A stretch of DNA of 64,000 nt from Modestobacter altitudinis (lineage in GTDB: Bacteria; Actinomycetota; Actinomycetes; Mycobacteriales; Geodermatophilaceae), in contig NZ_SJEW01000019.1 of NCBI RefSeq assembly GCF_005930475.1, positions 1-64,000 of the forward strand, written 5' to 3'. Of this stretch, positions 21,476 to 49,766 are shown in pieces. The notes beneath the pieces are model-generated. The model was given only the letters and a program-made list of their open reading frames with translations. It had not been told where the DNA came from and searched no databases. A program made the translations under genes and the position numbers. How positions within the stretch are numbered: the first letter of the stretch is position 1; every line of letters starts with the position of its first letter.

Positions 21476-21548
21476 GGGGCTGTGGCGCAGCTGGTAGCGC
21501 ACCACACTGGCAGTGTGGGGGTCAGGGGTTCGAGTCCCCTCAGCTCCA
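21476..21548 (+). tRNA. tRNA-Ala (GGC)
   Basis: 73 bases fold as a cloverleaf: acceptor GGGGCTG with CAGCTCC, anticodon arm CCACA-CTGGCAG-TGTGG with anticodon GGC, T-arm AGGGG-TTCGAGT-CCCCT, discriminator A. CCA is not encoded. The 3' half from 21507 is the attachment core for the downstream integrase and recurs four more times in the window. Confidence 0.95.
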
Positions 21549-21561
21549 CCCCTTTGAGCAG

Positions 21562-21640: not shown

Positions 21641-22807
21641 TCAGTCCCACAACGCCCGGCCCATCCGGTCTGCGGCGTCCTTGCCGAGCGCGGGCATGAC
21701 ATGGCTGTAGGTGTCCGTGGTCGTGCGCATCTGCGAGTGGCCGAGGACCTCCATGACCACCCGGGGGTGGACGCCCTCGGACAGCAGCAGCGTCGCGGCC
21801 GTGTGCCGGCCGTCGTGCAGCCGGACGTCGCGGACGCCTGCTTCGTTCAGGAGCCGCTTCCAGGCGAGCCAGTCGGCCTTCCGCTCGATCGGCTTCCCGT
21901 TCGGCTGCGCGAAGACCAGGTCGTGGTCCTGCCAGAGCGAGCCGGCCCCGGCCCGCTCCGCGAGCTGGGCGGCGCGGTGGGCGCGCAGCGCCTCAACGAG
22001 CTGGCCGGGCAGCGCGAGGGTCCGCCGGCTGCGGTCGGCCTTGGGCTCCTCGTAGACGAGGCCCTGCTGAGCGACGCGGTGCAGGCCGCGTCGCACGGTC
22101 AGTGTTCCGTTGCCGAGGTCGACGTCGGACCAGCGAAGGCCGAGTGCTTCGGACTGCCGCAGGCCGACCGCCAATGCCACTGTCCACCGGGCGGCGTTGC
22201 GGTGCCGCTGCGCTGCCGCCATCACTGACTTGGCTTCGTCGGCGGTCAGCGGCAGCGCGGTCTGGGAACGTTTCACGGTGGGCGGGTCGACCAGCGTGGC
22301 GACGTTGCGAGCGATCTTGCCGCGCTGGGTGGCGACCCGGAGCCCCCGGGAGAGCACTCGGTGGGCACGCAGGATCGACGCGGGGCTGAGGCCGTTGTCC
22401 GCGAGTGCGGCGTAGAGCAGCTCTAGGTGTTCCGGCTGCAGGCGGTCGAGCCGGTGGTGCCCGACTCCAGGACGCAGGTGCAGCCGCACGGTGCTGCGGT
22501 AGCTCTCCAACGTCCTAGCTCGGACCTTCCGGGCCGCGATGTTGTCGAGCCAGTGGTCAAGCCACTCGCCGACGGTCGGCGCTCGACCGGCCGCCTCCAC
22601 CAAGCCGGCGTCACGCTTCGACTCGAGCGCCCGCACCTTGGTGACGACGTCGGCGCGCTTGGCGCCGGAGACGTGGCGCCGGTCGCGGCGGCCGTTCTCC
22701 TTCTTGCCCATCGACACGAAGCCGTGCCACCGACCGTCGTCGTCCTGGTAGATCGAGGACTCACCGCTCGCCCGCGGTCGCCTGGTCGCTTCTCTCCGCC
22801 GTGTCAT
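21641..22807 (-). CDS. Tyrosine-recombinase integrase
   Basis: 388 residues. An N-terminal DNA-binding region and a SAM-like core-binding domain (about 78-170) precede the catalytic domain with R217, K256 (probable), H331-x-x-R334, H357 and Y367, so it should be active. Its C-terminus faces the tRNA-Ala gene 93 bases away, the standard layout for an element integrated into a tRNA 3' end. An excisionase-like gene lies upstream. Two truncated relatives sit beside later att copies in the same orientation. Confidence 0.96.
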   Translation of the reverse strand: MTRRREATRRPRASGESSIYQDDDGRWHGFVSMGKKENGRRDRRHVSGAKRADVVTKVRALESKRDAGLVEAAGRAPTVGEWLDHWLDNIAARKVRARTLESYRSTVRLHLRPGVGHHRLDRLQPEHLELLYAALADNGLSPASILRAHRVLSRGLRVATQRGKIARNVATLVDPPTVKRSQTALPLTADEAKSVMAAAQRHRNAARWTVALAVGLRQSEALGLRWSDVDLGNGTLTVRRGLHRVAQQGLVYEEPKADRSRRTLALPGQLVEALRAHRAAQLAERAGAGSLWQDHDLVFAQPNGKPIERKADWLAWKRLLNEAGVRDVRLHDGRHTAATLLLSEGVHPRVVMEVLGHSQMRTTTDTYSHVMPALGKDAADRMGRALWD

Positions 22808-22889
22808 CGGTCGCTTCTCTCGCTCATCGTGTTCGACGGCGGCCGAGTGTCGTGGTGGGCTCCGACACCGGGTCGCCGGAATCCACAAG

Positions 22890-23198
22890 TCAGGGTCGGG
22901 TGGCGGGCTTGGGGACGACGTCGAACAGTTCGCCCTGATTCGTGCTGGTCCTCCGGCCCGTGCGCGACGTCGGAGGCGCCGGCCGCTCAGCCATGTCGAG
23001 GCGGTCGACGTACCGCTTGAGTTCGGCGCGGGACAACCGGCAGCTGCGGCCGATGTGGACCGCGTGCAGGTCACCGGACTTCATCAGCGCGTACACGGTG
23101 GTGCGGCCGACGCGGAGCACGGTGGCGGCTTCCTCTGGGGTCAGCAGCAGCGGCTCGTCGGCGAGAATGTCCCGCAGTCGTTGTGGCTGGTTGCCCAT
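22890..23198 (-). CDS. Excisionase-like helix-turn-helix protein
   Basis: 102 residues. A MerR-like winged helix (LTPEEAATVLRVGRTTVYAL, then HIGRSCRLSRAELKRYVDRL) typical of 'excisionase family DNA-binding' proteins. It lies directly upstream of the integrase on the same strand, so it probably directs excision of the element. ATG 23198. Confidence 0.9.
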   Translation of the reverse strand: MGNQPQRLRDILADEPLLLTPEEAATVLRVGRTTVYALMKSGDLHAVHIGRSCRLSRAELKRYVDRLDMAERPAPPTSRTGRRTSTNQGELFDVVPKPATRP

Positions 23199-23363
23199 GC
23201 CGTCCCTCCGGTTCGCATCGGCGGCCGGGTGCCTGGGTTCCGACCGGTTCCGCTTGGAAGAGGCGTCACCAACGGCCGTCTGGTGACGGCGGACGCCGAC
23301 GAACCGAGCCGCGGCGGACGCAGACGAACCGGGCCGGCCGGTGCTCGGCGGGGGAGAGGAGGT

Positions 23364-23393
23364 GGGGTGACCCCGTCGGGGGGGTGTCACCCC
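23364..23393. promoter_or_regulatory. Inverted repeat upstream of the excisionase
   Basis: GGGGTGAC (23364-23371) and GTCACCCC (23386-23393), with another TCACCCC at 23409-23415, in the gap between the zinc-ribbon gene and the excisionase. It may be an operator for the integration genes. Confidence 0.4.
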
Positions 23394-24508: not shown

Positions 24509-25735
24509 ATGGTGGTCCCCGATTCACGGCTACGCCTCCGCCGATGGGAACTGCAGCTGCGCCGTCGATGGCTGCTCGGCGTCCGGAGCGTGGAGGAGGT
24601 CATCTGGGATCGGCGGATCGCCCTACGCTGTAGACGAATTCGCTACTACCAGATAGACGATGACCTAGAACTTGCGGACATCGGGCCCTTGACCCGCGAC
24701 TACTTCCGCAGGCTTCATCAAGGTGTCGAGTCACAGGTCGCCGTCGAAGGTGAAGATGCGCGACATCGTATCGTTGCCGACTTGGTGGAGCGCGAGGGCG
24801 ACAGTCTGAAGCCGCGCGCTACGAAGGTCACCACTGGTCTGCTCGCGGGTGCGGCTCATCTCGACCGATCCCTGAGCAGAGACAAGCGGATTCTCGCGGT
24901 CACCTTGCAGCAGGTTTGGGGAGAAGCTTTCCAGGCCTACGGCGCGGCCGCTTATGCGTCCTACGAGGTCGGGGCGGGCTGGGCGATAGACCCGCCAGGC
25001 CAGAGACCCGTTGTGTGGGACAGCCTCCTCGACCTACATGCGCGCGCCTGCCGAGTGGTGAGCGAGATCCAGACGTTGCAGCAGGCCGGCTTTCCGAGTG
25101 GGGCGGAGGCCCGCGCCCGTTCGCTGCATGAGCTGGCCGTGGTGGCCTCCGTGTTGCAGAAGTCCGATGCCGAGCTGACTGACCGGTATAGGGCTTATGA
25201 GGAAATCGAGCATTATAACGATGCCGTGCAGTACAACGAGAACTGCGAGGCGCTGGAGCAGGCGCCCATCCCTGCCAACGAGATGGCGGAGCTGAAAATG
25301 ATGAGCGAGTCAGTGGCGAAGAAGTGGGAAGGCATTAGAGGATCCAACGGCTGGGCGCGCTCCATCCTGAAGAATCCCTCGTTCAACGATCTAGAGAAGT
25401 ACGCTGACCTTGGCCACCTGTATCCCTTTTACCGACTTGGCAACCACTCGGTGCACGCTGGGCCTCGTGCCTCGACGCTGCAGCGGATCGAGATCGACGG
25501 CGTGCTGCACAGGAGTCCTGGGGCGACCGTGCACGCCGACTTCGCAGAGACCGCGCACGGTGCGTTAATCAGCCTCCAGCAGATCAACGCAGCCTTGCTG
25601 GGGGAGCGCGTGGGTGCAGGAGCCGACGTCGACTCGCTCGTCGCCATTATGGCGATAGCCGGTCTCATCGAGGTCGCCGGCGGTCGTTTGACGGCCGCTG
25701 CGCAGGCCGCAGCGGAGAAGGGGTGGGCGTACTGA
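24509..25735 (+). CDS. DUF5677-like protein
   Basis: Up to 408 residues, largely helical. From about residue 45 the sequence looks genuine, and the C-terminal part has the YRLGNHSVHAGPRA segment that resembles the conserved Ser/His motif of DUF5677 proteins. Function is unknown; such genes often sit in mobile or defence regions. The first 40 or so residues are Arg-rich and may not be translated, so the true start could be downstream. GC content is lower than the flanking chromosome, in keeping with transfer. Confidence 0.65.
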   Translation: MVVPDSRLRLRRWELQLRRRWLLGVRSVEEVIWDRRIALRCRRIRYYQIDDDLELADIGPLTRDYFRRLHQGVESQVAVEGEDARHRIVADLVEREGDSLKPRATKVTTGLLAGAAHLDRSLSRDKRILAVTLQQVWGEAFQAYGAAAYASYEVGAGWAIDPPGQRPVVWDSLLDLHARACRVVSEIQTLQQAGFPSGAEARARSLHELAVVASVLQKSDAELTDRYRAYEEIEHYNDAVQYNENCEALEQAPIPANEMAELKMMSESVAKKWEGIRGSNGWARSILKNPSFNDLEKYADLGHLYPFYRLGNHSVHAGPRASTLQRIEIDGVLHRSPGATVHADFAETAHGALISLQQINAALLGERVGAGADVDSLVAIMAIAGLIEVAGGRLTAAAQAAAEKGWAY

Positions 25736-25745
25736 GGAGAACTCC

Positions 25746-26825
25746 TCACCGTCGTCCTGGACGCCGCCACCGCAGCCGTGCCGGCCACCGAAGCCGGCGA
25801 CGCCCCGGTTGTCGAGGTGCAGGGCGGCGTGACCGCTGACCCTCTGGACCCTCTGGACCCTCTGGCCGCTTGACCGGCCCCGCCACCCGGCGCGGAGCCG
25901 ACTGCACGCCATGCCGGCTGGCCCGGCGTCCCAGCTCGGTGCGGACGCGGGCCGGGGTTTCAGGGTGCTTGCCTCCAGGTGCGATTTGCCTGAGTCTTTT
26001 CACGACTTGAAACCAGATCGACGCGGTCGGGTAGATCGTGAGGACGAAGAAGAGGAGCGTCAGGAGGAAAAATCCCCGTAGCGATTCGACGGTTTCGAGT
26101 CGATCGCCTGGCTGTCGCGTGATCCAGAACTGCGTGCCGACGAAGAGCCCCGAGGAGATGCAGAACAGCCCAGGTATCAACGACTTGCCGTAGTAGCTCC
26201 ATAATCCGCGGCCTTGCCCGTCTGATGACCTCTCCTTTGACGTCTTGTCCGTCACCTCCTCCCGGGAGGCATGGGATTTCAGACCTTTCATCTCAGCGGC
26301 GAGTTCGAGCTCGAGGAGTACGGCCGGCGGCTCGACGCTCTCTCCGTCATAGAAGCGTTGCGCTATGCGGGCGCGCTCAGACAGCGTCCAGACGTAAGAA
26401 CGGTAAATTTGTGGGAAGATCGCGAAGATGGCGCCCACCATAAGTATGGGGGTGGCAAATCCGTCGCCGGTGGTTGCGAGGAAGAAGTCGAAGACGCTCC
26501 ACGGGGCGTCGCTAGCCAGGTAAGCCGCTCCGAGATACCCGAGCTGCCCGTAGAGCACTGCAATGATGAACCAGGCGAGCCACGGCCAGGCTGTTCGCCA
26601 ACTGCCCGTCATCTGGCGTGCGATCAGGTCCGCAAGAGTGACGCGGTGAAGTTCGGAGACAGAGCGCCGCCGAGGATCATTCTCATTTAGTGCGGTCAAT
26701 GATTCACGGAAGAGTTGCTCTCTTCTTCTCAACCTAGCGGCGCGCGTTACACCGAAGTAGAGGCCGAGTAGAGCTGTAACCGCCGCTAAAATGGCCGCGA
26801 AAGCACGAATTGTCTCAAGGAACAC
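25746..26825 (-). CDS. Membrane protein, unknown, with chimeric C-terminus
   Basis: 359 codons. About five to six helices: near 8-27, 80-105, 110-140, 222-240 and 250-275, with a charged cytosolic loop (about 165-215, rich in Ser, Lys and Glu). The first 275 residues look real and have lower GC; the last 80 or so are Arg/Pro-rich and run antisense through the older remnant at 25754-25873, so the gene probably lost its own stop when joined to foreign DNA. No family recognised; it is divergent from the secreted nuclease gene. Confidence 0.65.
   Translation of the reverse strand: MFLETIRAFAAILAAVTALLGLYFGVTRAARLRRREQLFRESLTALNENDPRRRSVSELHRVTLADLIARQMTGSWRTAWPWLAWFIIAVLYGQLGYLGAAYLASDAPWSVFDFFLATTGDGFATPILMVGAIFAIFPQIYRSYVWTLSERARIAQRFYDGESVEPPAVLLELELAAEMKGLKSHASREEVTDKTSKERSSDGQGRGLWSYYGKSLIPGLFCISSGLFVGTQFWITRQPGDRLETVESLRGFFLLTLLFFVLTIYPTASIWFQVVKRLRQIAPGGKHPETPARVRTELGRRASRHGVQSAPRRVAGPVKRPEGPEGPEGQRSRRPAPRQPGRRRLRWPARLRWRRPGRR
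25754..25873 (+). pseudogene. C-terminal remnant of an unidentified gene
   Basis: A 39-codon open stretch (AATAAVPATEAGDAPVVEVQ..., ending DPLDPLDPLAA) with normal high-GC codon use but no start. It ends in a short 9-bp tandem repeat (CTCTGGACC). It overlaps the 3' end of the opposing membrane-protein frame. Confidence 0.4.
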
Positions 26826-28466: not shown

Positions 28467-29882
28467 GGTGACGTCCCGCTGTGTGGTGGATGTAGTCCTC
28501 ACCGTGTTGGTCAGCGGTGTGGTGACTATGACGCGATCAGGGCCGGCTGCGCCACCTCCTTGGTTGAGGTCTCGGTCCGGTGGAGCGGGGTCATGGAGCC
28601 TTCGGAGAGGTAGCGGCGGTCGGAGACCTGCCATTCGTCGTGGGCCTCGACCAGCACCGCGCCGGCCAGCCGGAGCAGCGCGGCGGGGTTGGGGAAGACG
28701 CCGACGACGCCGGTGCGGCGCTTGATCTCCTTGTTCAGCCGTTCCAGCGGGTTGGTCGACCAGATCTTCTTCCAGTGGCTGACCGGGAACGCGGTGAAGG
28801 CCAGCGGTTCCTCGACTGCCTCGCGCAGCATGGCCTCGACGGTCGGGAACTGGCGGCCGAGCATGCCGGCGATGACGTCGAGCTGGGAGTGCACGTGTTC
28901 GGCGTCGGGCTGGGCGAAGATCGTGCGGATCGCGGCGGCGACCATCTCGGCGTTGCCCTTCGGCACCCGGGCGAGCACGTTGCGCATGAAGTGCACCCGG
29001 CAGCGCTGCCAACTGGCTCCGATCATCACCGCGCCGATGGCGGCTTTCAGCCCGGTGTGGGCATCGGAGATGACCAGCTGGGTGCCGGCCAGGCCGCGGG
29101 CCTTCAACGACCGCAGGAACGCGGTCCAGAACGCGCCGTCCTCGGAGTCGCCGACGGCGAACCCGAGCACCTCCCGGTGCCCGTCAGCGGCAACCCCGGT
29201 GGCGATGACGACCGCCTGGGAGACCACCCGCCGGTCGACCCGCGCCTTGCAGTAGGTGGCGTCCAGGAACACGTAGGGGAACGCCTGCTCGGCCAGCGAG
29301 CGGTCGGCGAACGCGCCGACTTCGGCGTCCAGATCGGCGCAGATCCGGGAGACCTCGGACTTGGAGATGCCGGTATCGGCGCCCAGCGCCCGCACCAGGT
29401 CATCGACCTTGCGGGTGCTCACCCCGTGCAGGTAGGCCTCCATCACCACCGCGAACAGGGCCTGGTCGATCCGCCGGCGCCGTTCCAGCAGCGAGGGGAA
29501 GAACGACCCGGCCCGCAGCTTGGGGATCCGCAGCTCCAGATCACCGGCCGTCGTGGTGAGCGTTCTGGGTCGGGAGCCGTTGCGCTGGGCGGTACGGGCA
29601 TCGGTGCGTTCGTGCGGGCCGGCGCCGATCACGGCGGTGAGCTCGGCCTCGATCAACGCTTGGTAGATCGTGGTGGCCGCCGACCGGATCCGGTCATCGA
29701 CGTCGGCGGCCTTCAGTGCCTCCAGCACCTCGAGCAGGGCAGACTGGTCCAGGGCCATCGTGTGTTGTGTCCTTCCGCGAGAACCATTGGCGTGGTCTCG
29801 CTGACCTTCACACGATGGCCCCTCTACGTGATCACTCACGCGAGTGGGGACCTGGACTTACACCACCAGCAGGGACGTCACC
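28467..29882. mobile_element. Complete IS256-family insertion sequence
   Basis: 1416 bp with terminal inverted repeats beginning GGTGACGTCCC at both ends, flanked by a 9-bp target duplication GCCATGCAG (28458-28466 and 29883-29891). The transposase gene is intact and the duplication exact, so the insertion is recent. Confidence 0.93.
28526..29758 (-). CDS. IS256-family transposase
   Basis: 410 residues, full length. Conserved pieces of the IS256/MULE DDE domain are present: FLDATYCKAR with the first Asp, VISDAHTGLKAAI with the second Asp, the RCRVHFMRN segment, and NPLERLNKEIKRR with the catalytic Glu. ATG 29758. It should mobilise the surrounding element. Confidence 0.96.
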   Translation of the reverse strand: MALDQSALLEVLEALKAADVDDRIRSAATTIYQALIEAELTAVIGAGPHERTDARTAQRNGSRPRTLTTTAGDLELRIPKLRAGSFFPSLLERRRRIDQALFAVVMEAYLHGVSTRKVDDLVRALGADTGISKSEVSRICADLDAEVGAFADRSLAEQAFPYVFLDATYCKARVDRRVVSQAVVIATGVAADGHREVLGFAVGDSEDGAFWTAFLRSLKARGLAGTQLVISDAHTGLKAAIGAVMIGASWQRCRVHFMRNVLARVPKGNAEMVAAAIRTIFAQPDAEHVHSQLDVIAGMLGRQFPTVEAMLREAVEEPLAFTAFPVSHWKKIWSTNPLERLNKEIKRRTGVVGVFPNPAALLRLAGAVLVEAHDEWQVSDRRYLSEGSMTPLHRTETSTKEVAQPALIAS

Positions 29883-30179
29883 GCCATGCAGACCCGGCAG
29901 CCCAACCTGAAGGGTGCCGGGGAGATCCGCTGCGCCGGCTGGTGAAGGAGGCGCTGCGGATGCGGCCCTCGCGGCTGGTGGTGGACGAGGTCCGGCAGGA
30001 GGGGTGCCTGGACCTGACGCAATCGGGCTGACCAACAACCAGCTCCGCCCGACGATCACCCTTTTAGGGGAACTAGAACGCGATCGACCGCACCGTCGGT
30101 CAGTATCGGGCTAAATGCCCTATGGAGCGGTGCGAGCCCAAGCAAGCAGCCCGAGCTACGCCAAGAATGGGACAAGTTC

Positions 30180-30761
30180 ATGCGTCGGATGATCGTCATC
30201 ACCGCAGCGGCGCTGATGCTGGCCAGCTGCGGTGGCGAGGGTGCCGTGGTAGCTTCCCCGACCCTGCCGCCGACCACCGACGCCTCGGCGCCGACCACCT
30301 CAGCGAGCGATGACCCGCCCACCAGCGAGCGCGGCAACCTCGTCAAGACGTTGGGTCAGGAGGGAGGCGTCTTCAACCCCGACGAGTCCGAGCTGGTGTT
30401 CACCTTTGCGCTCGACGCTGCGCGAGCCGACCCCACATGTGACAGCGGGTTCGCCTCACCTCCGGCGAACGGGCACTACCTCGCGCTCGACCTCCGGTAT
30501 GCCACGTCGCCGAACCTGCCAGAGGACTACTTCATCTACTGGGCCGCGCGCGATTTCCGCTTCATCGGCGCGGACGGCGTGACGGTGACCAACGTGGAGG
30601 GGCAGGGCTTCTCATGCTCCATCAGCCAGATTGGTCAGGAACTTCTGCAGCCGGGTAGTCAGTACCGCGGAACGCTCATTCTCGATGTGCCGGAGACCCA
30701 CGGAATCCTGATCTACGCCCCGGCGTGGGGCAACAAGGTCGGGTGGGAGTGGGCACTTTAG
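30180..30761 (+). CDS. Predicted lipoprotein, unknown
   Basis: 193 residues. Signal peptide with lipobox LASC (C17), a Ser/Thr/Pro linker, then a beta-rich domain (VFTFALDAARADP, GHYLALDLRYATS, IYWAARDFRFIGADG) resembling DUF4352-like surface domains, with two further Cys residues. Probably anchored outside the cell membrane. It starts 150 bases after the CpaF remnant; no partner gene. Confidence 0.8.
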   Translation: MRRMIVITAAALMLASCGGEGAVVASPTLPPTTDASAPTTSASDDPPTSERGNLVKTLGQEGGVFNPDESELVFTFALDAARADPTCDSGFASPPANGHYLALDLRYATSPNLPEDYFIYWAARDFRFIGADGVTVTNVEGQGFSCSISQIGQELLQPGSQYRGTLILDVPETHGILIYAPAWGNKVGWEWAL

Positions 30762-30870
30762 AGGTTCGGCGCTGCTAAGTCAGAAGCGCACAGTTCGGGG
30801 GAGGCTTGTGTTCCGCGACGCTCGCCTAGACCACGTCATCGTCCGGGACCGGCGCACGGGATTGCTGCGG

Positions 30871-32110
30871 GTTCAGTTGATACGGGGTGAGTGGTGATCA
30901 TGCCGCGATAGCGGCGTGTTGGTCGGTGAAGGCGAGTTCGTTCTCGACGGGGGTGAGCTTGCCGAGGGCGCGCTGGCGCCGGCGGCGATTGTAGGTGTGC
31001 TCGGTCCAGAACACCATCGCGGCGTGGAGCTCGTCGCGGGTGCGCCAGCGGCGGCGGTCGAGGACGTTCTTCTGCAGCAGCGCCTGACAGGACTCCATGG
31101 CGGCGTTGTCGCCGGCGGAGGCGACGCGGCCCATCGATCCCTGCAGGCCTGCGGCGGTCAGAACGGCGCGGAAGGATCTCGCTCGGAACTGGGATCCGCG
31201 ATCGCTGTGGACTACCACCACGCCCGTCGGTTGGCGCAGGGCCACGGCCGTGCGTAGCGCGGTGACGGCCAATTGGGCGGTCATCCGTTCATCGATCGCG
31301 TAGCCGACGATGCGGTTGCTGAACAGGTCCTTGATCGCGCAGCACTAGAGCTTGCCTTCCGCGGTGGGGTGCTCGGTGATGTCGGTCAACCGACCCGGTC
31401 GGGGGCGGGCGCGGTGAAGTTCCGTTGCACGTGGTCGTCGTGCACCGCCGGGCCAGGGCTTTGCCCGCACCTCGACGCCCCTTGCGGACCGTGGTCGACC
31501 ACAGCTTCTGCTCCGAGTACAATCGCCAGATGCGCCGCTCACCGGCGACCAGCCCGGCACCGGCGACTTCGTCGGCGAGGAACCGGTAGCCGAACTCGGG
31601 GTCATCGCCGTGAGCGTCGATGAGTGCGTTGGTGCGGTAGGCGTCCTCGAGGTCGCGCTGGCTGACCAGAGCCGATAGCCAGGCGTAGTAGGCCTGATGC
31701 GAGTGGCCCAGCACCCCGCAGGTCAGCCGCACCGGGGATGCCCTGGGCGGCCAATTCACGGACCAGCGGGTAGCTCATTTTGGGAGGCTGCCGGCGGCGA
31801 AGTAGGCCGCGGCGCGGCGCAGATCTCGTTCTCCATCTCCAGCCGCCGCTTCTGGCGGCGCAGCTGCACGAGCTCGTTCTGCTCGGCACTGGTCTGGCCC
31901 TCAACGACACCGTCGTCGATGTCGGCCTGGCGCACCCAGCGGCGCACCGACTCCACCGAGATGTCGAAGTCGTGGCGACCTCGGCGTGGGTCAGCTCGCC
32001 CCGGCGGGCGACCCGGACCACGTCACGCTTGAACTCGGGCGGGAACTTCTTCGGCACAGCGACATCCGCCCCGCGGGACCTCGTCCCGCAGAAGCGGTGT
32101 CAACCCAACC
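30871..32110. mobile_element. Decayed IS3-family element
   Basis: Imperfect terminal repeats (GTTCAGTTGATACGG at 30871-30885; GTTGGGTTGACACCG read from 32109 back) flank a minus-strand orfA-orfB region full of frameshifts. Ends are approximate; no clear target duplication was found. Confidence 0.7.
30898..32057 (-). pseudogene. IS3-family transposase OrfA/OrfB, frameshifted
   Basis: OrfA begins at 32057 (MPKKFPPEFKRDVVRVARRG) and breaks within about 100 bases; an out-of-frame piece keeps QNELVQLRRQKRRLEMENEI, the usual leucine-zipper region. OrfB pieces include HQAYYAWLS, PEFGYRFLADEVAG and, in another frame, VVVHSDRGSQFRARSFR with an Asp and the later NAAMESCQALLQKNVL with the catalytic Glu. 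At least three frameshifts make it inactive. Confidence 0.85.
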
Positions 32111-32953: not shown

Positions 32954-33947
32954 TATGCAGGCCGGGAGCACTTGACGCTTGCGGTGCCGATTGTCCTCCC
33001 GGTGCTGTCAGGGCCGAAAGCCTCGGACGGTCAGGCTGGGTGCGTCCGGGCACGCCGAGCACGTGTTGCTGCGGGGAGTCGCTGTCATGTTCTGGCGGCC
33101 GAGGTGACGAACCAGCACGGCGGCGCGGAAGGTCAACCCAACCCGGCGCCGTCCTCGCAGGGAAGCCGCTTGGGGTGGCCGCGGCATGGGCCGCAAACAC
33201 TCTTTAAGTACCCAATATGGCCGTCAATCGCAATCAATGGTTGCTATACTCATTAGTAACATGGGCCTTGAGCTGCGCTCATACTGCGGAATCAACGCGA
33301 GCAAACGCATCAAGATCAATTCGCAGGGTCATTGAGACGCACTACGGCACCGCTAGTTTCGGCGCGGCGGGGACCTCGACGACGAGAACCCCGACGACGA
33401 GAACCCGGAACCGGCCAGCCGGAGCTGGTAGGTCTGAGCACTCGCGCCTAGCAGCCCGGTCGGGTCGTCACTGCGCCCGGCGAGTCTTGCGATTGACAGC
33501 AGCTCGGGCGACTTCGCGCGCCACGGGCAGCGCCAAGCGGCTCGTGGCGAGCCCGGCACGGCACAGCCGGTCGGTCACGAGGTCTAGGAGGTGCTCGTTC
33601 AGCAGCTGCGTCGAGATGGCGCTGCGTGAACCGACGGACCTGCCCCGTTGCCCGTACCCATGCGCGAATCGTGGCGGCGTCCGGGCCTCCACCGGATCCA
33701 CGCCGCCCACCTCACCGACGAGGCCGTCCCGCACCGCGACCCGGCCGTCTTCGGCACCCCGCCCCCGGACGCCCACCTCGTCCGCCATTAGCAGCCGGGG
33801 AACCGCCTCATTCGGCGTTCCGGTCGACGATGGGTGAACGAGACGCCCTGCGCCGCCGCGGTCATCCGGGTGCAGGTCTCGCGTGACTGCCTCGGCGTCG
33901 GCAGAGCGCCAATGCATTCGTGTCGGAGCGGTCGGTCAAGATGAGGT
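32954..33947. other. Mosaic of gene remnants, no intact gene
   Basis: Three pieces look like old coding sequence. A 32-codon frame at 33237-33335 (ISNMGLELRSYCGINASKRI) has a relative near 45180-45260. Minus-strand 33468-33620 gives LLDLVTDRLCRAGLATSRLA. Plus-strand 33653-33791 gives HAAHLTDEAVPHRDPAVFGT. None has a start and full domain. Confidence 0.5.
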
Positions 33948-35009
33948 GTGACCGGCCCCCGACGACGTCATCCCTCGGCGCTCATCTCCTGGGCGCATGT
34001 CGACCCAGGTTGGTCACCCGACCAGATCGGTGCTCGCAGGGACGCGGTCTTCGAGTTGGCAACCGCACTTCGACGCAATGGAGTTGACGTCGACGTGGAC
34101 CTGTACCACCTCAGCGCCTCTGTCGACTGGACGCGCTGGGGCCCAGGCCGCATCGCTGAGTGTGACTTCGTGCTTGTCGTGGTGTCCGAGAGCTGGCGTC
34201 TGGCGTGGGAGGGGCGTGGCGATCCGACTAAGGGCGCCGGTGCGGCGGCTGAAGCTGATGCGCTCCGCAGCCTCTACGCCGTGAACCGCGACGTCTTCCG
34301 GGACAAGGTGCGGCTCGTGCTCTTGCCTGGGGCCAACAGCAAGGACATCCCTTCCGGGCTGCACGGAGTTGCGCGCTTCGAGGTGGGAACCATTGATGAT
34401 GCTGGCTTGTCGGACCTGCTGAGGAACCTCACCGAGCAGCCGGAATTCATCAGAGGAGAGCTGGGCGATCTGCCGGAGCTCCCGCCGCGCTCATCGGCGT
34501 CTGCCCAGGCGCGGTCCGCGCCCGTCACGGCTGGCCCAGCCGCCACCGTCGAGACCGATGCAGCTCCGGGACCGGAAGTCACCCTTGGACAGCGCAACGC
34601 GTTGGCGAAGGGGCTCGACTACCTACGGCACATCGCCTTCTCCAGGAAGGGCCTGGCCAACCAGCTCGTCTCCGAGGGCTTCTCTGTGGACGATTCGGAG
34701 TTCGCCGTCGCCGCCGTAGGCGTGGCGTGGGGCGAGCAGGCTGCGAAGAAGGCCAGCGACTACCTGTCGCACTTGGCGCTCTCCAGACGAGGCCTCGTTG
34801 ACCAGCTCGTCTCCGAAGGCTTCACTCAGGGTGAGTCGGAGCTTGCCGTCGCCAACGTGGACGCGGACTGGGATGAGCAGGCGGCGAAGAAGGCCAGCGA
34901 GTACCTGTCGTTCAACTCCTTCTCCCAGTCCGGGCTGACTCGCCAGCTCGCTTTCGACGGCTTCACCCAGAGCGAAGCCGAAGCCGCAGCCGCCAAGGCC
35001 TTCGGATGA
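33948..35009 (+). CDS. SEFIR-domain protein fused to three Ltp-type repeats
   Basis: 353 residues. Residues 8-150 form a SEFIR (TIR-like) domain: the opening strand ALISWAH, a helix ending LRRNGVDVDVDLY, the SEFIR hallmark VDWTRWGPGRIAECDFVLVV and SESW. After a Pro/Ala linker (175-212) come three helical repeats (217-263, 264-310, 311-353), each with a Y-L...F/L-S-x-x-G-L-x-x-QL-x-x-(E/D)GF pattern, as in the Ltp lipoprotein repeats (PF07553) known from the superinfection-exclusion protein of phage TP-J34. No signal peptide or membrane helix, so it is cytosolic. SEFIR is likely the effector or signalling part and the repeats the sensor (inference). GTG start with GAGG close by. Confidence 0.85.
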   Translation: MTGPRRRHPSALISWAHVDPGWSPDQIGARRDAVFELATALRRNGVDVDVDLYHLSASVDWTRWGPGRIAECDFVLVVVSESWRLAWEGRGDPTKGAGAAAEADALRSLYAVNRDVFRDKVRLVLLPGANSKDIPSGLHGVARFEVGTIDDAGLSDLLRNLTEQPEFIRGELGDLPELPPRSSASAQARSAPVTAGPAATVETDAAPGPEVTLGQRNALAKGLDYLRHIAFSRKGLANQLVSEGFSVDDSEFAVAAVGVAWGEQAAKKASDYLSHLALSRRGLVDQLVSEGFTQGESELAVANVDADWDEQAAKKASEYLSFNSFSQSGLTRQLAFDGFTQSEAEAAAAKAFG

Positions 35010-35569
35010 CAAGCGACGACGCGTCCGCCGGCGGCCCGCTCGCGGTCTAGTACGGCATTCGCCGCCGATCCTGCCGTGAATCGGTGCGGAGAGTGATCGT
35101 TACCGGGGCAGTTATTTCAGGAGATCCTCCGCGTTCGCAGCGATCCAGTGCTCGGCGCGAGGCGTCCGGTCCTTGGCTCTTTCCTTCCACCAGCAGCGGA
35201 AAGCCGGCCCCCCAGGCGGTCCAGCCGCGCGCATGGTCAGCGAGGCGTCCGCAGTTTGGCGCAACGCGACGCTCACCCCCTGCCCGCGCAGGTCTGCGTC
35301 CATCCACTTAAGGATCCGCGAAGAGGGCACCCGGGGAGCGCGGCGTTTCGGGAGACGGGCGCGCGATCGAGCGATTAATTGTCCCGATCAGGCATCGTTT
35401 ACTCATCGAAAATGGGCTGACACAAGCCCATGTCACCAACGTGGGTCAACGTCGAATCTGCTGGTCAACGCACTGTTCCATCAACGGCCAACGGTGATCA
35501 ACTGGGTCAAGATCAAATCGCAGGATTTGTGAGTTCGCGTTAGCGCACACGTAGCGGTGACGATTGATT
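35010..35569. other. Gap with a possible short remnant
   Basis: On the minus strand 35112-35330 reads SSRILKWMDADLRGQGVSVA to ERAKDRTPRAEHWIAANAED, plausible as a protein piece but with no recognised family. The rest (35340-35569) is AT-richer, with no gene. Confidence 0.4.
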
Positions 35570-38500
35570 TTAGCGGATGGCGCGGGCGATCTCGGTTGCC
35601 ACGGCCCTCGCTTGCTCGGGATGTGCGCGTCCAAGACCCACCGCTAGTTCAGCCAGAATGCAAAGAACGTTCTCTGGGTCACCGCCTGGCAGCGCGTCGA
35701 GGAGGTCGGGCAAGACCGAGTCAAGTGACATGCCGTTAGCTGCAGCGATGCCAGCGATGTTTGCGAGCAGCGGCGCGCGCCGGTCATCAGTAATCGGCTT
35801 AGTCAACCCAATGGCACGTCCCGGGTCATGGTCGGCTACTTGGTATATGAACCGTTCCAGCGCTCCCCAACTCACTGTCCCGTAGGACATTTTGCGCAAG
35901 ACGATCTGTGCACCCTCCTCATCGAACTTTCGGATGGTTTCGAAGAGTAGGTCCAAGGCCAGGTCTACAGCATGATTCGCACCGCCTCGAGTCGCCCGCG
36001 CCACTACAATTGCCTCGTCGAGCACTTGTCGAGCTCGCTGATCGTCTAGCTCTAACCATCCTAGGCGCGATAAACCGAGTGCCTGACTTCTCAACACCGT
36101 GTCCGCCAGGCCGAGGGCCGTCGTGTAGGCCGATTCGGCCAGCCTACGCGCGTACTTTGGGTCTTCTTGCGCTATGCCGCGAGCGAGCCGGGCGAACGCG
36201 GCAGTCCTTTCCCCGTGGTTCGGCATGGTTTGCACCATGCGCTCGAGATGGCTTGCCACACCGGCGGCGCCGGAGGCTGCAGGGGCGCCCGGCCATGGCG
36301 GGAATATTGAATCCACAGGGGCAGTGTGCGCGGCACTACGTACAGCCTCGTCCAGGCCCGCCCAGGCGTCCGCCGCTTGGATGACCATCCGTTCTTGAAG
36401 TCTGGGGTCCAAATCACCTGCGTAAGCTGCCACGCGCAAGCTGGTCAACACTCGCGCCAAAGGTTCATGTTGGGCAGTTGCTGACTTGGCAGACTCTTGA
36501 AGGATCATGAGTGCGCGCGCAGGGTCGATACTTTGCAACCGCCCGACGTTTCTGAGGCTCTCATGGAACCTCGAGATATCCCCGACAGGATAGGAGGGTT
36601 CGGCCAGTGCATTCCGTGTCCCAGTAAGGACTTGCAATTGAGTTTCGATAGCGCCGAGCGCGGTCTCTCGGGTGTACTCGGTCGCCAACTCCGTCGCCTG
36701 TCGGCGAGCCTCCACCGCGTCTACGATGGCGACAGCCTGAAGGATTCGATCCGCATTGATTGAACTGAGTCGCACGGGCCCTCCGATCGGTGCCTGAACC
36801 GCCTCCACGGCAAGTCGGCGCGCCTCGAGCGGCTGCGTCCAGGAGAGAAGAATAGCGAGGTCGGCGAGCCGAGCGCTCCGCCTTTTAACATCTGGCATCT
36901 GTCGCGCAAGAAGGATTTGCTCCGTGAGGATCTCGTACGGCAAGGACTGGACAGCGGATTCATCGCCCGGCTCCCTGCCATCGTCGAGCTGTGTTATTGC
37001 CGCCGTGACTCGCTCCTCGGCTCTATGCCGCCAGGCGACCGATTCAATCCGCTGCATAACACGGCGCGCCCGCTCCTCCGAGTGTGGCGCGAGCAGCACC
37101 GCAACCTCAACTAGCGATTGGTCCTCGAACCAGGCTCCCAACGCTGCCTTTGGCCTCGCCTCCATAATTTGAACGGCTCTGTCGAGCAACGTATCGGCAC
37201 GAGCGTCATTCGCGGCCGCAAAGAAGCCTCCCGCAACCGCCAACGCTTCCGCCTGGTCGTCTGGCTCGGCAATATCGTCAATCAGCCTCAGGAATTCTTC
37301 TCGGTCGCACCGAGCGGCGAGCGTGGACAGGTGCTTTAAAGCGTTTGAGCGTTCTATCGGACTGGTTATCGACTCGGTGACCTCCAGCCCGTCCTTCAGC
37401 GAGCGATGCATGAGTGGTTGTTGTCCGGCGGAGTTGGCCGCGTGACCCAATCGAGCCAATAAAATTGCCCGCAACTCTGGATCTGCGACGTTGGAGATGC
37501 CCTGGAACGCGTGATCTAATAACGATGGCGTAAGCTGGCCAGCGGAGTGCAAGAATCTCAAGACTGCGTCAAGCCCGTCCAGTGTATCTGCATGTCGCTG
37601 CAGGGCGAGGTCGAGAGCGCGGACCGGCCGATCGAGGACCGCCATTGCTCCTAGCGCCTCAGGCGCGACTTGTCTCAACGCATCTTCGATGCTCGCCGCA
37701 ACCACAGCCGCCCGGGAAGCCAAACTCAGAGCTCGAATGGATTCGCTGCTGGTGGCCCAGCTGGCGTGCAGCAGTTTTCGGCTCGCGGGATGAAGCCAGG
37801 CAAGATAGGTGGAGTCGCTTCCGACTTGGGCGAAGGCTGCCCTCCATTTCGGTGTAAGGAGCCTCTCGACCTGATCAAGGTCATAACTCAGTGCCACGTG
37901 ATAGAGCGCAAGGCCGCTTGTGTCCTCAGTCAAGCCGTCTGGTTCACCAATCCCCGCAAGAAAGCGCTTGTGTAAAGGCCGAAGGAGTACGTCGTCGGGT
38001 TCGCCATGTCGCTGGTGGAGCCATGCGAGGACAACGTCATGAACGGCGATGCCGTCCGTACGGTCAGCCGTGGCCGGAGAGAGCGTTACGAGACCAACGC
38101 GGTCAAGTGCGCGCGCCACCTGTCTCGCCTTGATTGGGGACAACTGCCAGAGGATGGCTAAGGCTGTGGTCGGGATGTAGGTGACGCTTTGGTATACGGC
38201 TAGTGCAGTGAAGCACTCGGGTTCGAGCCGCGAACCGGTTCGGGCCAAGTGGCTTAGACTGTGCATCAACAGGGCGTTGAGCGAGCCGTCGCCGCTGGGG
38301 TCATCGAGCACAGTTGGGTCGGCCGCGAACTCCTCGCGAAGTTCGGTCAACCGTTGAGTCGCGGTTCGGGGGTCCGTTGCAGTGTCGGCCAGTAGGCGGC
38401 CGGCTAGGTCGAGCAGGACTGGCCAATGTCCTAGCGCTGACGTGACGCTATCAATGTCAATAGTGAGATGGAGTGGCCCATGCCGTTCCTTATAGGCCGC

Positions 38501-39652
38501 CAGCAGCAGGTCTTGAGCGGCAGGCGGATCTACGGCGCCGATTCGCAGAGTATCGCCCGTCGAGAGACCCCTGGTTGTGATAAGCACGCTGGTTCGGTCG
38601 GACAGCGTGTTGACGACCGCAGCTAGTACAGCGGTATCCCATACGTCATCGAGGACTATCAGCGTGCTGGTGACCGGTGCGCCACCGAGAGCGTCGACAA
38701 GATCGTCCGCGACGCGCTCCGGCACCGCGTCTGGTCCGACGGACCGCCAAAAGATGCCTCCTGGGAATTGGCCGATAACACGCGGGTCGTGCGCCACCAT
38801 TTGAGCGATCGTCGTCTTGCCCATTCCGGGCAATCCGGTCAGCGTGAGGATGCGCTTGTGGGTATCAAACCTTGCTACAACTGCGTCGACTTCGCGCTGG
38901 CGGGCGGTGATGCGTTGCCACGGTGGCGGTGGGGGTGCTAGGCGACTTCTCGACCGGTTCTGCGGATTGACCTCTAGTAAGTCAGAAAGCGCAGTTATGC
39001 CAATCTGGTGCAGAAATACATCGCGCAGTTCAGCCGGCGCGTTCCCAACTGCGGTCAGGGGTTGCACAATCAGAGAGCCCAGTCCTTCCGCGGGCCGATG
39101 TTCGATCACTACACCGATTAGTCGGCTTGAGGCGATAAGGCCTGCGCCTGACAGCCCCTTCCATGGCCCATCGGTACCCGGCGCGCGGTCTGGCTCTCCG
39201 GCAAGTAGCTTCACTACCAGGGTCCCTTCGGGCCTGTTTTCAGCCGTCGGAATAAATCCGACCGGTTGGGCCGGTGTCCCCTGTGGAAGCGACCTGTCCT
39301 TGTCTTGCTTGAAATCCGGATATCCCACTGCCATGGCATCTGTAACTACCTCGATGCGATTCCTATCAAGCCGGCCGAGGGGTGCCGGTGAAAGGTCGGG
39401 CGCTAGGTTCTCCGCGATGAGAAGCGCTAAGTCTAGGCGCTCGTCCCACACGGCGATCTTCGAAACGTCATACTCGAAACCCTCGATATCTCGTACGACG
39501 GTACGACTTCCGGGATTATCGGGTGCGTCTATTGTGTGAGCGGCCGTCAGGACGACACCTGGGCGAATAATGAAGCCTGAGCCGCATTCGTAGCGCGGTT
39601 GGGCGTTTTCCCCGCGGTCGTGGATGACCTCGACGGCGCGTGCAACTTCCAT
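35570..39652 (-). CDS. Trypsin-like protease / NB-ARC (STAND) / repeat protein
   Basis: 1360 residues. Residues 1-215 are a trypsin-like protease with the triad H39 (VLTAAH), D74 (ERLDLALL) and S168 (KGLSGAG). A STAND NTPase follows: Walker A GLPGMGKTT (273-281), Walker B LIVLDD (331-336), the ITTR sensor and a winged-helix part to about 560. From about 600 to the end lie helical repeats of the TPR or HEAT kind, rich in Leu and Ala, probably the sensor. The architecture matches STAND-based conflict systems in which a target binds the repeats, the NTPase oligomerises and the protease is switched on (family inference). The adjacent upstream gene encodes a trypco2 protein. Codon use is less GC-biased than the chromosome. 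Confidence 0.93.
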   Translation of the reverse strand: MEVARAVEVIHDRGENAQPRYECGSGFIIRPGVVLTAAHTIDAPDNPGSRTVVRDIEGFEYDVSKIAVWDERLDLALLIAENLAPDLSPAPLGRLDRNRIEVVTDAMAVGYPDFKQDKDRSLPQGTPAQPVGFIPTAENRPEGTLVVKLLAGEPDRAPGTDGPWKGLSGAGLIASSRLIGVVIEHRPAEGLGSLIVQPLTAVGNAPAELRDVFLHQIGITALSDLLEVNPQNRSRSRLAPPPPPWQRITARQREVDAVVARFDTHKRILTLTGLPGMGKTTIAQMVAHDPRVIGQFPGGIFWRSVGPDAVPERVADDLVDALGGAPVTSTLIVLDDVWDTAVLAAVVNTLSDRTSVLITTRGLSTGDTLRIGAVDPPAAQDLLLAAYKERHGPLHLTIDIDSVTSALGHWPVLLDLAGRLLADTATDPRTATQRLTELREEFAADPTVLDDPSGDGSLNALLMHSLSHLARTGSRLEPECFTALAVYQSVTYIPTTALAILWQLSPIKARQVARALDRVGLVTLSPATADRTDGIAVHDVVLAWLHQRHGEPDDVLLRPLHKRFLAGIGEPDGLTEDTSGLALYHVALSYDLDQVERLLTPKWRAAFAQVGSDSTYLAWLHPASRKLLHASWATSSESIRALSLASRAAVVAASIEDALRQVAPEALGAMAVLDRPVRALDLALQRHADTLDGLDAVLRFLHSAGQLTPSLLDHAFQGISNVADPELRAILLARLGHAANSAGQQPLMHRSLKDGLEVTESITSPIERSNALKHLSTLAARCDREEFLRLIDDIAEPDDQAEALAVAGGFFAAANDARADTLLDRAVQIMEARPKAALGAWFEDQSLVEVAVLLAPHSEERARRVMQRIESVAWRHRAEERVTAAITQLDDGREPGDESAVQSLPYEILTEQILLARQMPDVKRRSARLADLAILLSWTQPLEARRLAVEAVQAPIGGPVRLSSINADRILQAVAIVDAVEARRQATELATEYTRETALGAIETQLQVLTGTRNALAEPSYPVGDISRFHESLRNVGRLQSIDPARALMILQESAKSATAQHEPLARVLTSLRVAAYAGDLDPRLQERMVIQAADAWAGLDEAVRSAAHTAPVDSIFPPWPGAPAASGAAGVASHLERMVQTMPNHGERTAAFARLARGIAQEDPKYARRLAESAYTTALGLADTVLRSQALGLSRLGWLELDDQRARQVLDEAIVVARATRGGANHAVDLALDLLFETIRKFDEEGAQIVLRKMSYGTVSWGALERFIYQVADHDPGRAIGLTKPITDDRRAPLLANIAGIAAANGMSLDSVLPDLLDALPGGDPENVLCILAELAVGLGRAHPEQARAVATEIARAIR

Positions 39653-39664
39653 GGTGTATCGGGG

Positions 39665-39985
39665 TCAGTCGCGCTTTTTGCCCGTCAGGGGATTGACGTT
39701 TGTCCCTCTCGAGATTTTGACGGGTCGGCCGTCGCGAAGCGCTGGGCGCAAACTTAGGGAGACCGACTGTACGGACTCGGTCGCGTAGCTGGTACTCCCA
39801 CCAAGTTCTATGACCCAGAACTTCAGCCCTGCCTTTCCTTCGCCACTTCGGGTAACGCCGACTTGAAACTGCATCTCGACTGATATGGCGTCAAACAGGA
39901 TTTCCTCATCCTGCGCTACTGTCATGGCCTCCTCAAGCTCCTGTCGGAGGGCTGCGATAGCCTGAGTCAAGCCAATTTCTGCCAT
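39665..39985 (-). CDS. Trypsin-co-occurring domain 2 (trypco2) protein
   Basis: 106 residues. MAEIGLTQAIAALRQELEEA, the VEMQFQVGVT strand and the GGSTSYATESVQSVSLSLRP strand match the trypco2 family, small proteins encoded next to trypsin-STAND genes. ATG 39985 has AGGAGG seven bases upstream, which rejects the six-residue longer form. Its stop is 12 bases before the protease-STAND gene, so they are an operon. The role, perhaps an adaptor or inhibitor of the protease, is unproven. Confidence 0.9.
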   Translation of the reverse strand: MAEIGLTQAIAALRQELEEAMTVAQDEEILFDAISVEMQFQVGVTRSGEGKAGLKFWVIELGGSTSYATESVQSVSLSLRPALRDGRPVKISRGTNVNPLTGKKRD

Positions 39986-40202
39986 GTGACGCCTCCTCGG
40001 CAACGCCTGGCGGCCAGTGCTTTGGGGGCGTTGAAGCGCGCAGTGGATGCCATGATGGCATCTGCTGCTGCTCTATCACCCCTTCGGCCCCACACTTGCA
40101 GGGCTCGACGGGCACGCCGCGCTTAGTGTGCCATGCAGCTTAGAGTCGTACGCTGTCGTCGCCAAGGTCTAAATTGACCTGGATGTCCGGAGCCGCGAGC
40201 CC

Positions 40203-40762: not shown

Positions 40763-40806
40763 CTGGCAGTGTGGGGGGTCAGGGGTTCGAGTCCCCTCAG
40801 CCCCCA
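40763..40806 (+). repeat. att copy 2 (tRNA-Ala 3' half)
   Basis: Matches tRNA-Ala 21507-21548 with one extra G, one extra C and a changed acceptor end. No integrase piece follows; an AlbA_2 pseudogene does. It marks a junction between stacked elements. Confidence 0.9.
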
Positions 40807-41930: not shown

Positions 41931-42622
41931 GCTAGGGCGTGAGCGCCCGCTTGGCCGGGCGGCACCACAGAGTCGCGCGGGCTACGGTGCGCTGGCGCCC
42001 TAACCGTCCAAACCGCAGCGGTCGCCCGTCAACGGGCAGAACACCTATCGCAGCTCCGGTTCGCGCCGCGCTTCCTCAGCGGCTTATGTAGCTGCGATGG
42101 GAAGCGGGTGCCGACAGCCGGAATAATGACCCTTTGAGACATCGTCACGCTCAGCGACAGGCGTCAGGCCGGGGAGAGGGTCGGGCCGTGCTGGTCGGGA
42201 CGGCGATTCTTGACCACCATTCCGACCACCAATGCAGCGTGTTCGGGGTCGCTCGCCACAGTTCCCTATGATTCCGTATTTCGGTTAACCTGCGTAAACG
42301 GACTTCAGTGAACCGTCGTGAACCCGCGTTGGACGACTGGGGCCAAGGGGTAGCAGCGGTGTCCACCCAGGTGGTGTACGACGGGCGCCCCGCTCGGGGG
42401 GCCGCCGTCGAGGAAGCCGGTACCGGCCTGACGCAGCGTGTCGTCGGCGACGTCTTGGCCGAAGGGTGTCCGGTCATCACCGCCGTCCTCGCAAGGCGCT
42501 TGGATCCGACGTGGGACGAGTCAAGCCGCACCACCTGGCCGCTGGACTCATACAGGCGTTCGCGTGGCGTCGGTCTACGGTGTCTCGAGCCGAGCGATCG
42601 GGCCGTACGTACGCTTACGGAC
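41931..42622. other. Gap with no gene
   Basis: Frames here are short or Arg/Thr-rich. The plus frame running into the TIR gene from 42308 does not look like protein. The lower-GC stretch before 42623 may hold the TIR promoter. Confidence 0.5.
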
Positions 42623-43381
42623 GTGAAGGTCTTCTTGAGCTGGTCGGGGGATGTGAGCAAGCAAGTCGCTGGACTCCTGCGCGAGTGGCTTCCGCTTGTG
42701 ATCAACGAGATCGAACCTTTCATGTCCTCTGAGGACATCGACAAGGGCAGCCGTGGACTGAGCAGAATCGCCTCGGAGCTACAAAACAGTGATCACGGCA
42801 TCGTCGTAGTAACAGAGGAGAACTGCGAGAAGCCCTGGATTAACTTTGAGGCGGGAGCGCTCTCAAAGGTTGTCGAGGAGAGCCGAGTTACCCCTCTCCT
42901 CTTCGGAGTCGAGTACACGCAGATTACCGGCCCGCTGACACAGTTCCAGCATGTTTTACCTCAGAAAGAGGACATACGGAGGCTCTTGGACAGCATCAAC
43001 CGAGACTGCGACAGGCCACTCTCGGAGAGCATGCTCGGCAAGGCGTTTGATCAGTGGTGGCCTCAGTTTGCAAGAGACCTACTCACTGTGCGGCCGCCGG
43101 TTAGCCACAGGAACATGAGAAGTCCAGACCAACTCACGAGCGAAACGCTTCAGATAGTACGAAGCATCCAACGCGAGTTGAAAGAATCTCGGCGGTCTAC
43201 TGGATCGTCGTATGGGGGCCCTCTGCCAACGTTCCGCGTAGAATACGCCTTTACGAACACCGACGAGGCACTGCAGCAAGGTTTCATCGACTCCATGAAC
43301 CGCGTAGCCAGCAAATATGGGCTTGTGCCAGTTCGACCTCGAGATGCGGACTACCCAACATTCGTCTTCTTCAATATCTAG
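42623..43381 (+). CDS. TIR-domain protein interrupted by an in-frame amber codon
   Basis: 252 codons from GTG 42623. A TIR_2-type domain (1-150) opens MKVFLSWSGD, has SSEDIDKGSRGLSRIASELQ and the W72-x-x-x-E76 motif (PWINFEAGALSK), whose Glu is the expected NAD-cleaving residue. The second domain begins near 205 (FRVEYAFTNTDEALQQGFID). TAG at 43379-43381 follows DYPTFVFFNI, but the same frame continues for 29 good codons (KELRKVMDQGISEHYWD... EKEVVKIEP) to TGA 43469-43471. So a single nonsense change, probably from TCG, removed the end. Defence (Thoeris-like signalling or NAD depletion) is a reasonable guess for its former role. Lower GC than neighbours. Confidence 0.85.
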   Translation: MKVFLSWSGDVSKQVAGLLREWLPLVINEIEPFMSSEDIDKGSRGLSRIASELQNSDHGIVVVTEENCEKPWINFEAGALSKVVEESRVTPLLFGVEYTQITGPLTQFQHVLPQKEDIRRLLDSINRDCDRPLSESMLGKAFDQWWPQFARDLLTVRPPVSHRNMRSPDQLTSETLQIVRSIQRELKESRRSTGSSYGGPLPTFRVEYAFTNTDEALQQGFIDSMNRVASKYGLVPVRPRDADYPTFVFFNI

Positions 43382-43885: not shown

Positions 43886-43927
43886 CTGGCAGTGTGGGGG
43901 TCAGGGGTTCGAGTCCCCTCAGCTCCA
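43886..43927 (+). repeat. att copy 3 (tRNA-Ala 3' half)
   Basis: 42 bases identical in layout to tRNA-Ala 21507-21548, followed by a diverged copy of the tRNA terminator hairpin and a broken integrase end. Confidence 0.93.
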
Positions 43928-49725: not shown

Positions 49726-49766
49726 CTGGCAGTGTGGGGTCAGGGGTTCGAGTCCCCTCAGCTCCA
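49726..49766 (+). repeat. att copy 4 (tRNA-Ala 3' half)
   Basis: Same as tRNA-Ala 21507-21548 less one G, followed by a close copy of the tRNA terminator hairpin and a short integrase fragment. Confidence 0.93.

Follow-up and report, generated by a model that had tools for sequence, protein, structure and literature searches.

A SEFIR domain joined to three Ltp-type superinfection-exclusion repeats in an integrative element of Modestobacter altitudinis, a candidate single-gene defence protein

The stretch of Modestobacter altitudinis DNA analysed here (the window, 64,000 nucleotides) encodes a 353-aa protein, SEFIR-Ltp (33948-35009, + strand, GTG start), in which a SEFIR domain is followed by three repeats of the type found in the superinfection-exclusion lipoprotein Ltp of phage TP-J34. 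We favor the reading, at a probability of about 0.5, that this is a single-gene cytosolic sensor-effector defence protein in which the Ltp part would sense a phage protein and the SEFIR part would act as an NADase that stops the cell. Each half is known, and it is the joint architecture that appears to be new. The titles and abstract openings of the papers surveyed, mainly outside subscription journals, describe no SEFIR-Ltp fusion, which agrees with the initial annotation where this layout was regarded as undescribed. Likewise, none of the matches listed for SEFIR together with superinfection exclusion and lipoprotein contains SEFIR, and no literature joining TIR domains with tail sensing was found.

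Architecture of the SEFIR-Ltp protein

The joining of a SEFIR/TIR-like domain to three Ltp-type repeats, as the initial annotation had proposed it, is borne out by profile and structure comparisons (PF08357, bSEFIR, PF07553, 4eqq and 5y8e). Specifically, three stretches of the protein match PF07553 with an E-value of 2.4e-31 (108 bits, Pfam cut-off 23.2), a significant match on which that reading of the repeats had been staked beforehand. Repeat 1 comprises residues 213-257 (34584-34718, +; PF07553 at 34590-34715) with helices at 213-228, 233-242 and 247-256, repeat 2, also matched by PF07553, comprises residues 261-304 (34728-34859, +) with helices at 261-275, 280-289 and 294-303, and repeat 3 comprises residues 308-352 (34869-35003, +; PF07553 at 34866-34982) with helices at 308-322, 327-336 and 341-352. 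The PHROGs superinfection exclusion family phrog_4980 matches the protein with E 2e-47, and a search of the PDB returned TP-J34 Ltp (4eqq) with E 2.1e-10 and two of the three repeats matched. For the SEFIR/TIR-fold domain, residues 10-162 (33975-34433, +), the Pfam match to SEFIR PF08357 at residues 30-145 is modest (26.5 bits versus a cut-off of 23) and that to TIR_2 falls below its cut-off (24.2 versus 28). The PADLOC profile bSEFIR (PDLC03957) matches with E 1e-12, protein residues 31-181 pairing with profile positions 53-199 of 412.

An AlphaFold2 model based on 22 aligned sequences has a mean pLDDT of 89.8 and exhibits a SEFIR/TIR fold at residues 10-162, a disordered linker at 184-205 (34497-34562, +; pLDDT below 50 at 184-192 and 194-205) and nine helices, arranged three by three, at 213-352; structure prediction, which had been put forward as a check, thus returned both the fold and the three helix triplets. 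With a pTM of 0.51 the model does not fix the mutual placement of the SEFIR and Ltp domains. When the model was compared with the PDB by Foldseek, TP-J34 Ltp (4eqq) ranked first with an rmsd of 1.0 over 96 columns, followed by the prokaryotic SEFIR domain 5y8e and the IL-17RA/RB/ACT1 complex, with RecX structures in sixth and seventh place. Ahead of the repeats there is no hydrophobic segment, the best 19-residue Kyte-Doolittle mean in this part being 1.02, as the proposed lack of a signal peptide would have it. With neither a signal peptide nor a membrane segment, the protein is, by its sequence, predicted to be cytosolic. The GTG start is supported because the Subtercola boreus homologue described below starts there as well, with the DNA match between the two beginning 13 bases upstream at window position 33935. 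A promoter scan returned none, and the terminator scan returned one where 1.0 was expected.

The tRNA-Ala element, the intact homologue and the remnants

The roughly 19 kb in which SEFIR-Ltp lies have the features of an integrative element, namely a tRNA, an adjacent integrase and direct repeats of the 3' part of the tRNA, and the mobile element of the initial annotation is in this way supported. A tRNA-Ala(GGC) at 21476-21550 (+; ARAGORN, Rfam), to which the repeats assign the probable role of left attachment site, is followed by the tyrosine integrase at 21641-23074 (-; PF00589, E 3e-27) and by an HTH_17 protein at 22890-23390 (-; PF12728, E 3.1e-14) that is putatively excisionase-like. The first 3' direct repeat copy after the tRNA, at 40771-40804 (+; repeat family D5, confirmed in the sequences), is the probable right end. 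On this arrangement of sequences SEFIR-Ltp is cargo of the tRNA-Ala element. Further copies found by repeat search and inspection of the sequences lie at 43893-43926 and 49732-49765 (both +) and would belong to stacked elements; two of the three extra copies share a flanking stretch with the tRNA itself, which suggests that elements are stacked at one tRNA-Ala over 21476-49765. The G+C content in 2-kb steps is about 60-69% at 24-45 kb versus 69-78% at 1-24 kb, a dip that alone proves little because there is a second one at 54-62 kb. The island also contains transposases at 28526-32057 (-), with a Mutator-family gene at 28526-29839 and an rve-type frame, probably IS3-like, at 30898-31284, and these may have rearranged it. 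At 24509-26825 the same element carries a DUF5677 gene and a gene for a membrane-type protein that no Pfam model matches; PADLOC matches neither.

The STAND protease which the initial annotation placed beside the gene is indeed there, as a convergently oriented 1360-aa protein with trypsin-like protease and NB-ARC STAND domains at 35570-39652 (-; PF13365, PF00931). Directly upstream of it is a Trypco2 protein at 39665-40003 (-; PF19631, E 5.2e-24), and the two (35570-40003, -) form a separate candidate defence pair. A TIR-TM type gene at 42308-43381 (+), located beyond the next tRNA 3' repeat and between two copies, matches PADLOC with E 6.7e-69 over residues 106-293; as the match is restricted to these residues the true start is probably further in. 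The STAND protease, Trypco2, TIR-TM, DUF5677 and the 359-aa membrane protein all had no tblastn match (E 1e-3) in loci L002, L003, L063, L064 and L067, where the contig of the Subtercola locus L002 ends about 4 kb downstream of SEFIR-Ltp. These absences rest on tblastn and not on a simple gene caller, which missed SEFIR-Ltp in L002. The STAND protease is therefore an adjoining gene and not a conserved partner, and the TIR-TM gene was rejected as a conserved partner on the same grounds. Since none of the five neighbours recurs, SEFIR-Ltp most likely acts alone.

An exact short-peptide-pattern scan of one genome per species in 84,980 species, which detects close relatives only, returned four loci, with the whole fusion in one of them. 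This intact homologue from Subtercola boreus (L002:9986-11047) is 353 aa long and aligns without gaps, 232 of the 353 residues (66%) being identical. Because the whole fusion is conserved there, a chance joining is excluded. The Subtercola gene sits between two DUF1622 copies and next to a nucleotidyltransferase gene, and a direct duplication (L002 7653-8105 and 11214-11641; an 87% identical 453-base stretch that includes DUF1622) brackets SEFIR-Ltp and the nucleotidyltransferase. A HEPN identity considered by eye for L002:8194-8652 was dropped, as neither Pfam nor PADLOC matches it.

Two remnants were also recovered. A genome of the same genus (G022) retains the last two repeats, with 82% DNA identity to window 34743-35031 and an in-frame stop, in an element at the same tRNA-Ala (L063) that carries two PycC (Pycsar cyclase) genes and one PycTM gene. 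The Pycsar stretch of this congener element, with a WYL frame, is at L063 10507-13479, and the integrase is read in two frames. A fused WYL-Ltp gene in G022 was considered and rejected, since a stop separates the Ltp remnant from the abutting WYL-domain frame; the remnant is therefore read as debris. In Blastococcus saxobsidens (L005; the same 43-aa frame is in L064) what remains is DNA from upstream of the gene together with about 32 codons of its beginning, window 33881-34043 being matched at 85% and window 33452-33541 at 84%. An integrase gene lies about 4 kb away from this N-terminal remnant. For the 509-aa gene that follows it, an ApeA/HEPN identity was a by-eye idea unsupported by Pfam or PADLOC.

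With full-length queries, matches of any kind at the thresholds used were obtained in 30 of 112 family genomes, 10 of 396 phylum genomes and 41 of 397 order genomes (own genome counted), and no second match spans both domains in these samples, which overlap and which yielded loci for part of the matches, the family sampled being that of the window and not that of Subtercola, the source of the second intact copy. The SEFIR part alone is matched in 4 of 23 genus genomes and 11 of 394 class genomes. In family f56 three of the 35 genomes have a match, in each case to the Ltp part only, with no Subtercola-like match. None of 31 matching plasmid records and none of 129 matching phage records reaches 80% query coverage, the 40 phage matches listed all being to the Ltp part. 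Among viral contigs one stretch fits the pattern of the SEFIR part and none encodes a relative. Across these surveys the fusion is rare.

This distribution bears on whether SEFIR-Ltp is a defence gene at all. A stress or housekeeping signalling protein might ride on islands by chance, and Ltp repeats do occur in other settings, for example in CbpL of pneumococcus according to the available portion of PMC5137146. Its patchy distribution, decay in relatives, association with integrase genes and defence-gene neighbours argue against this alternative, which we hold to be improbable. Homologues with a non-defence role, which the initial annotation had set as a counter-indication, were not encountered; the intact Subtercola copy and both remnants sit in variable regions, in two of the three cases close to integrase genes.

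The Ltp repeats and the SEFIR module

Among the ORFs of the fetched loci two contain both domains (the window and L002), 31 the SEFIR domain only and 53 the Ltp domain only, where the loci were picked by similarity and not at random, duplicates were removed by their last 50 residues, and some genes retrieved twice with different ends thus enter the counts double. A hydrophobic segment (a crude threshold of a mean above 1.6, with the start taken as the first start codon after a stop) is present ahead of the repeats in 48 of the 53 Ltp-only ORFs, and in 48 of the 49 that extend beyond the repeats. Of the remaining five, four begin inside the repeats and one (L119) has by eye a signal-like stretch with a mean of 1.44. 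Ltp repeats without an export signal are therefore unusual. A PF07553 survey at E 1e-12 gives no frequency, as the repeats of the window (best 3.7e-10) themselves fall outside it. In the literature, as far as the parts available go, Ltp acts outside the cell, and CbpL is the described exception in a family otherwise of lipoproteins (PMC5137146).

The charge of the repeats also departs from that of TP-J34 Ltp, which according to the accessible text of PMC3952083 works through the tape-measure protein to keep DNA from entering, a role for which that text attaches importance to negatively charged residues. Of the 16 acidic positions of TP-J34 Ltp, only 7 have an acidic residue in the window protein and 3 have a basic one, and the net charge of the aligned stretch is -2 in the window protein and -5 in TP-J34 Ltp. 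The three window repeats have a net charge of -7 (pI 4.76) and those of the Subtercola copy -6, where six stretches of three repeats from proteins of membrane or lipoprotein type have -15 to -21. The less acidic charge of the window repeats weakens the case for the printed charge-based binding mode. Given that both intact copies are alike in charge, this cytosolic form of Ltp may have a different ligand.

RecX is a cytosolic protein built of three three-helix repeats, and a second reading is that the repeats of SEFIR-Ltp are a RecX-like clamp which binds RecA filaments or single-stranded DNA from phage replication and in this way switches on the SEFIR domain. Consistent with this, Foldseek places the RecX structures 3e3v (E 0.0046 over 149 columns) and 3dfg (E 0.0087 over 140 columns) after Ltp and SEFIR, and RecX_HTH1 (PF21982) matches with E 2.8e-4, albeit at 21.2 bits below its Pfam cut-off of 26; the NCBIfam RecX models score at most 15 bits versus cut-offs of 189-240. 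Charge is no objection and does not discriminate between the Ltp and RecX readings, because the RecX of the same genome is acidic too (pI 5.26, net -8). Ltp is, however, closer both in sequence (E 2.4e-31 versus 2.8e-4) and in fold (rmsd of 1.0 over 96 columns versus 4.3-4.5 over 140-149 columns), and we consider a RecX-like clamp quite unlikely.

In regards to the SEFIR domain, residues D51, W61, G98, E102, P127 and P135 are invariant over 18 aligned SEFIR modules. Glu102 (codon 34251-34253, +), the candidate catalytic glutamate, is Glu in all 31 distinct SEFIR modules of the fetched loci, which were selected by similarity, and its counterpart in profile alignment is a Glu in the bacterial SEFIR structure 5y8e, whereas human ACT1 has a His there. 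It is a putative equivalent of the glutamate with which TIR NADases catalyse their reaction. SEFIR domains are named for signalling adaptors, and the domain could alternatively lack enzyme activity and serve, like those of animal IL-17 signalling, as an adaptor that recruits a SEFIR or TIR protein such as TIR-TM. The best PDB match of the SEFIR profile is in fact human ACT1 (E 1.7e-13), an animal adaptor and not an enzyme, which speaks for an adaptor role, and a TIR-TM gene is nearby. This is countered by the Glu102 that all 31 bacterial modules have where ACT1 has His, by the location of the TIR-TM gene beyond the next tRNA 3' repeat, and by tblastn searches (E 1e-3) of the Subtercola, G022 and Blastococcus loci, in which the TIR-TM protein had no match. 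An adaptor role is thus, in our estimation, unlikely.

SEFIR modules like that of the window are joined to a UvrD helicase (L051) or to TIR and NACHT domains (L041), carry a C-terminus that no Pfam model matches (L003, L007, L050) or make up nearly the whole protein (L052, L039). Pfam returns nothing at all for L003 and L007, and for L050, L039 and L040 it returns SEFIR or TIR_2 only below cut-off, so that in these five SEFIR was assigned from resemblance to the window protein. The pattern behind the module suggests one effector with exchanged sensors. The UvrD-type protein (L051 5959-8547, +) is encoded on a conjugative plasmid of Rhodococcus rhodochrous, and the protein with SEFIR, TIR and NACHT (L041 1420-3465, +) has a NACHT-associated inactive restriction-endonuclease domain between them.

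When the window and Subtercola genes are compared by the Nei-Gojobori method, the SEFIR domain has dS 0.99 and dN 0.18 (dN/dS about 0.19) and the Ltp part dS 1.75 and dN 0.24 (dN/dS about 0.14), whereas the linker at residues 176-208 (33 codons, 13 of 33 identical) has dS 0.42 and dN 0.51 (dN/dS about 1.2); this is one pair, from the only two intact copies known, with dS near or above 1 and thus near saturation. For this pair the values suggest that both domains are constrained and the linker is not, a difference that points to joint selection on the two halves. This matters for the reading in which a cytosolic Ltp directly stalls DNA entry or tail assembly via the tape-measure protein, with the SEFIR domain providing oligomerisation or avidity only. 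Such a block would draw on the finding, in the portion of PMC3952083 available, that the Ltp repeat domain is the part responsible for exclusion, a secreted derivative without the lipid anchor being active; the derivative with broadened range is secreted and not cytosolic (PMC3952083). That the SEFIR domain is constrained (dN well below dS) and Glu102 conserved is left unexplained by a direct block, to which we assign a low probability.

Proposed mechanism and relation to known systems

In the favored sensor-effector reading, a phage protein that arrives on the cytosolic side in the course of infection would be bound by the three Ltp repeats. The leading single candidate would be the tape-measure protein, which could come in together with the DNA or be synthesised at a late stage of infection, and within this reading we judge it somewhat less probable than not as the ligand, some other phage protein being the likelier one. 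Binding would cluster SEFIR-Ltp, with the flexible linker as a joint, so that the SEFIR domains assemble; the assembled domains would hydrolyse NAD+ using Glu102, and the infected cell would be halted before phage release. Both the NADase output and abortive infection are assigned to SEFIR-Ltp from its families, as SEFIR defence is listed as NAD+ depletion in the excerpted text of PMC12322248, PMC12774641 and PMC12926258. The narrower version, in which Ltp has been turned inward to detect the tape-measure protein at entry or synthesis and fire the SEFIR NADase, is tentative and on balance doubtful. By the available text of PMC13190303, the defence protein SNIPE does engage tape-measure proteins at the inner membrane while injection is under way.

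SEFIR-Ltp resembles bSEFIR (PDLC03957) in its profile match, SEFIR fold, conserved candidate Glu and island setting. It differs in that only the 53-199 portion of the 412-position profile is covered and its C-terminus consists of Ltp repeats; it is therefore a SEFIR-effector variant and not bSEFIR itself. Its repeats share the sequence family (PF07553) and fold (4eqq) of TP-J34 Ltp. However, SEFIR-Ltp has no lipobox, signal or membrane segment, is less acidic, and has three repeats fused to a cytosolic effector-type domain; with no hydrophobic stretch ahead of the repeats it is therefore not an Ltp lipoprotein. With RecX it shares a fold-level match of the repeats, but the sequence match is below the Pfam cut-off and RecX has no SEFIR domain. 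SNIPE, composed of DUF4041 and a nuclease, is alike in being a defence protein that binds tape-measure proteins, at the inner membrane (PMC13190303, in the part available). It has other sensor and effector domains, is membrane-bound and cuts DNA directly. DSR2, SpbK and Thoeris are alike as NAD-linked defence, triggered, as far as the accessible sources state, by tail tube, YonE and capsid, respectively, but these use SIR2 or TIR domains and other sensor folds. YonE is a portal protein.

We know of no established trigger of a SEFIR defence protein. A 353-aa protein whose second half has a printed phage target thus offers a direct ligand hypothesis for SEFIR. If true, this would link superinfection exclusion by prophages to NAD-linked abortive infection by hosts, and SEFIR-Ltp would be an NADase alarm that reads the siphophage entry machinery with a domain taken from the superinfection-exclusion repertoire of prophages.
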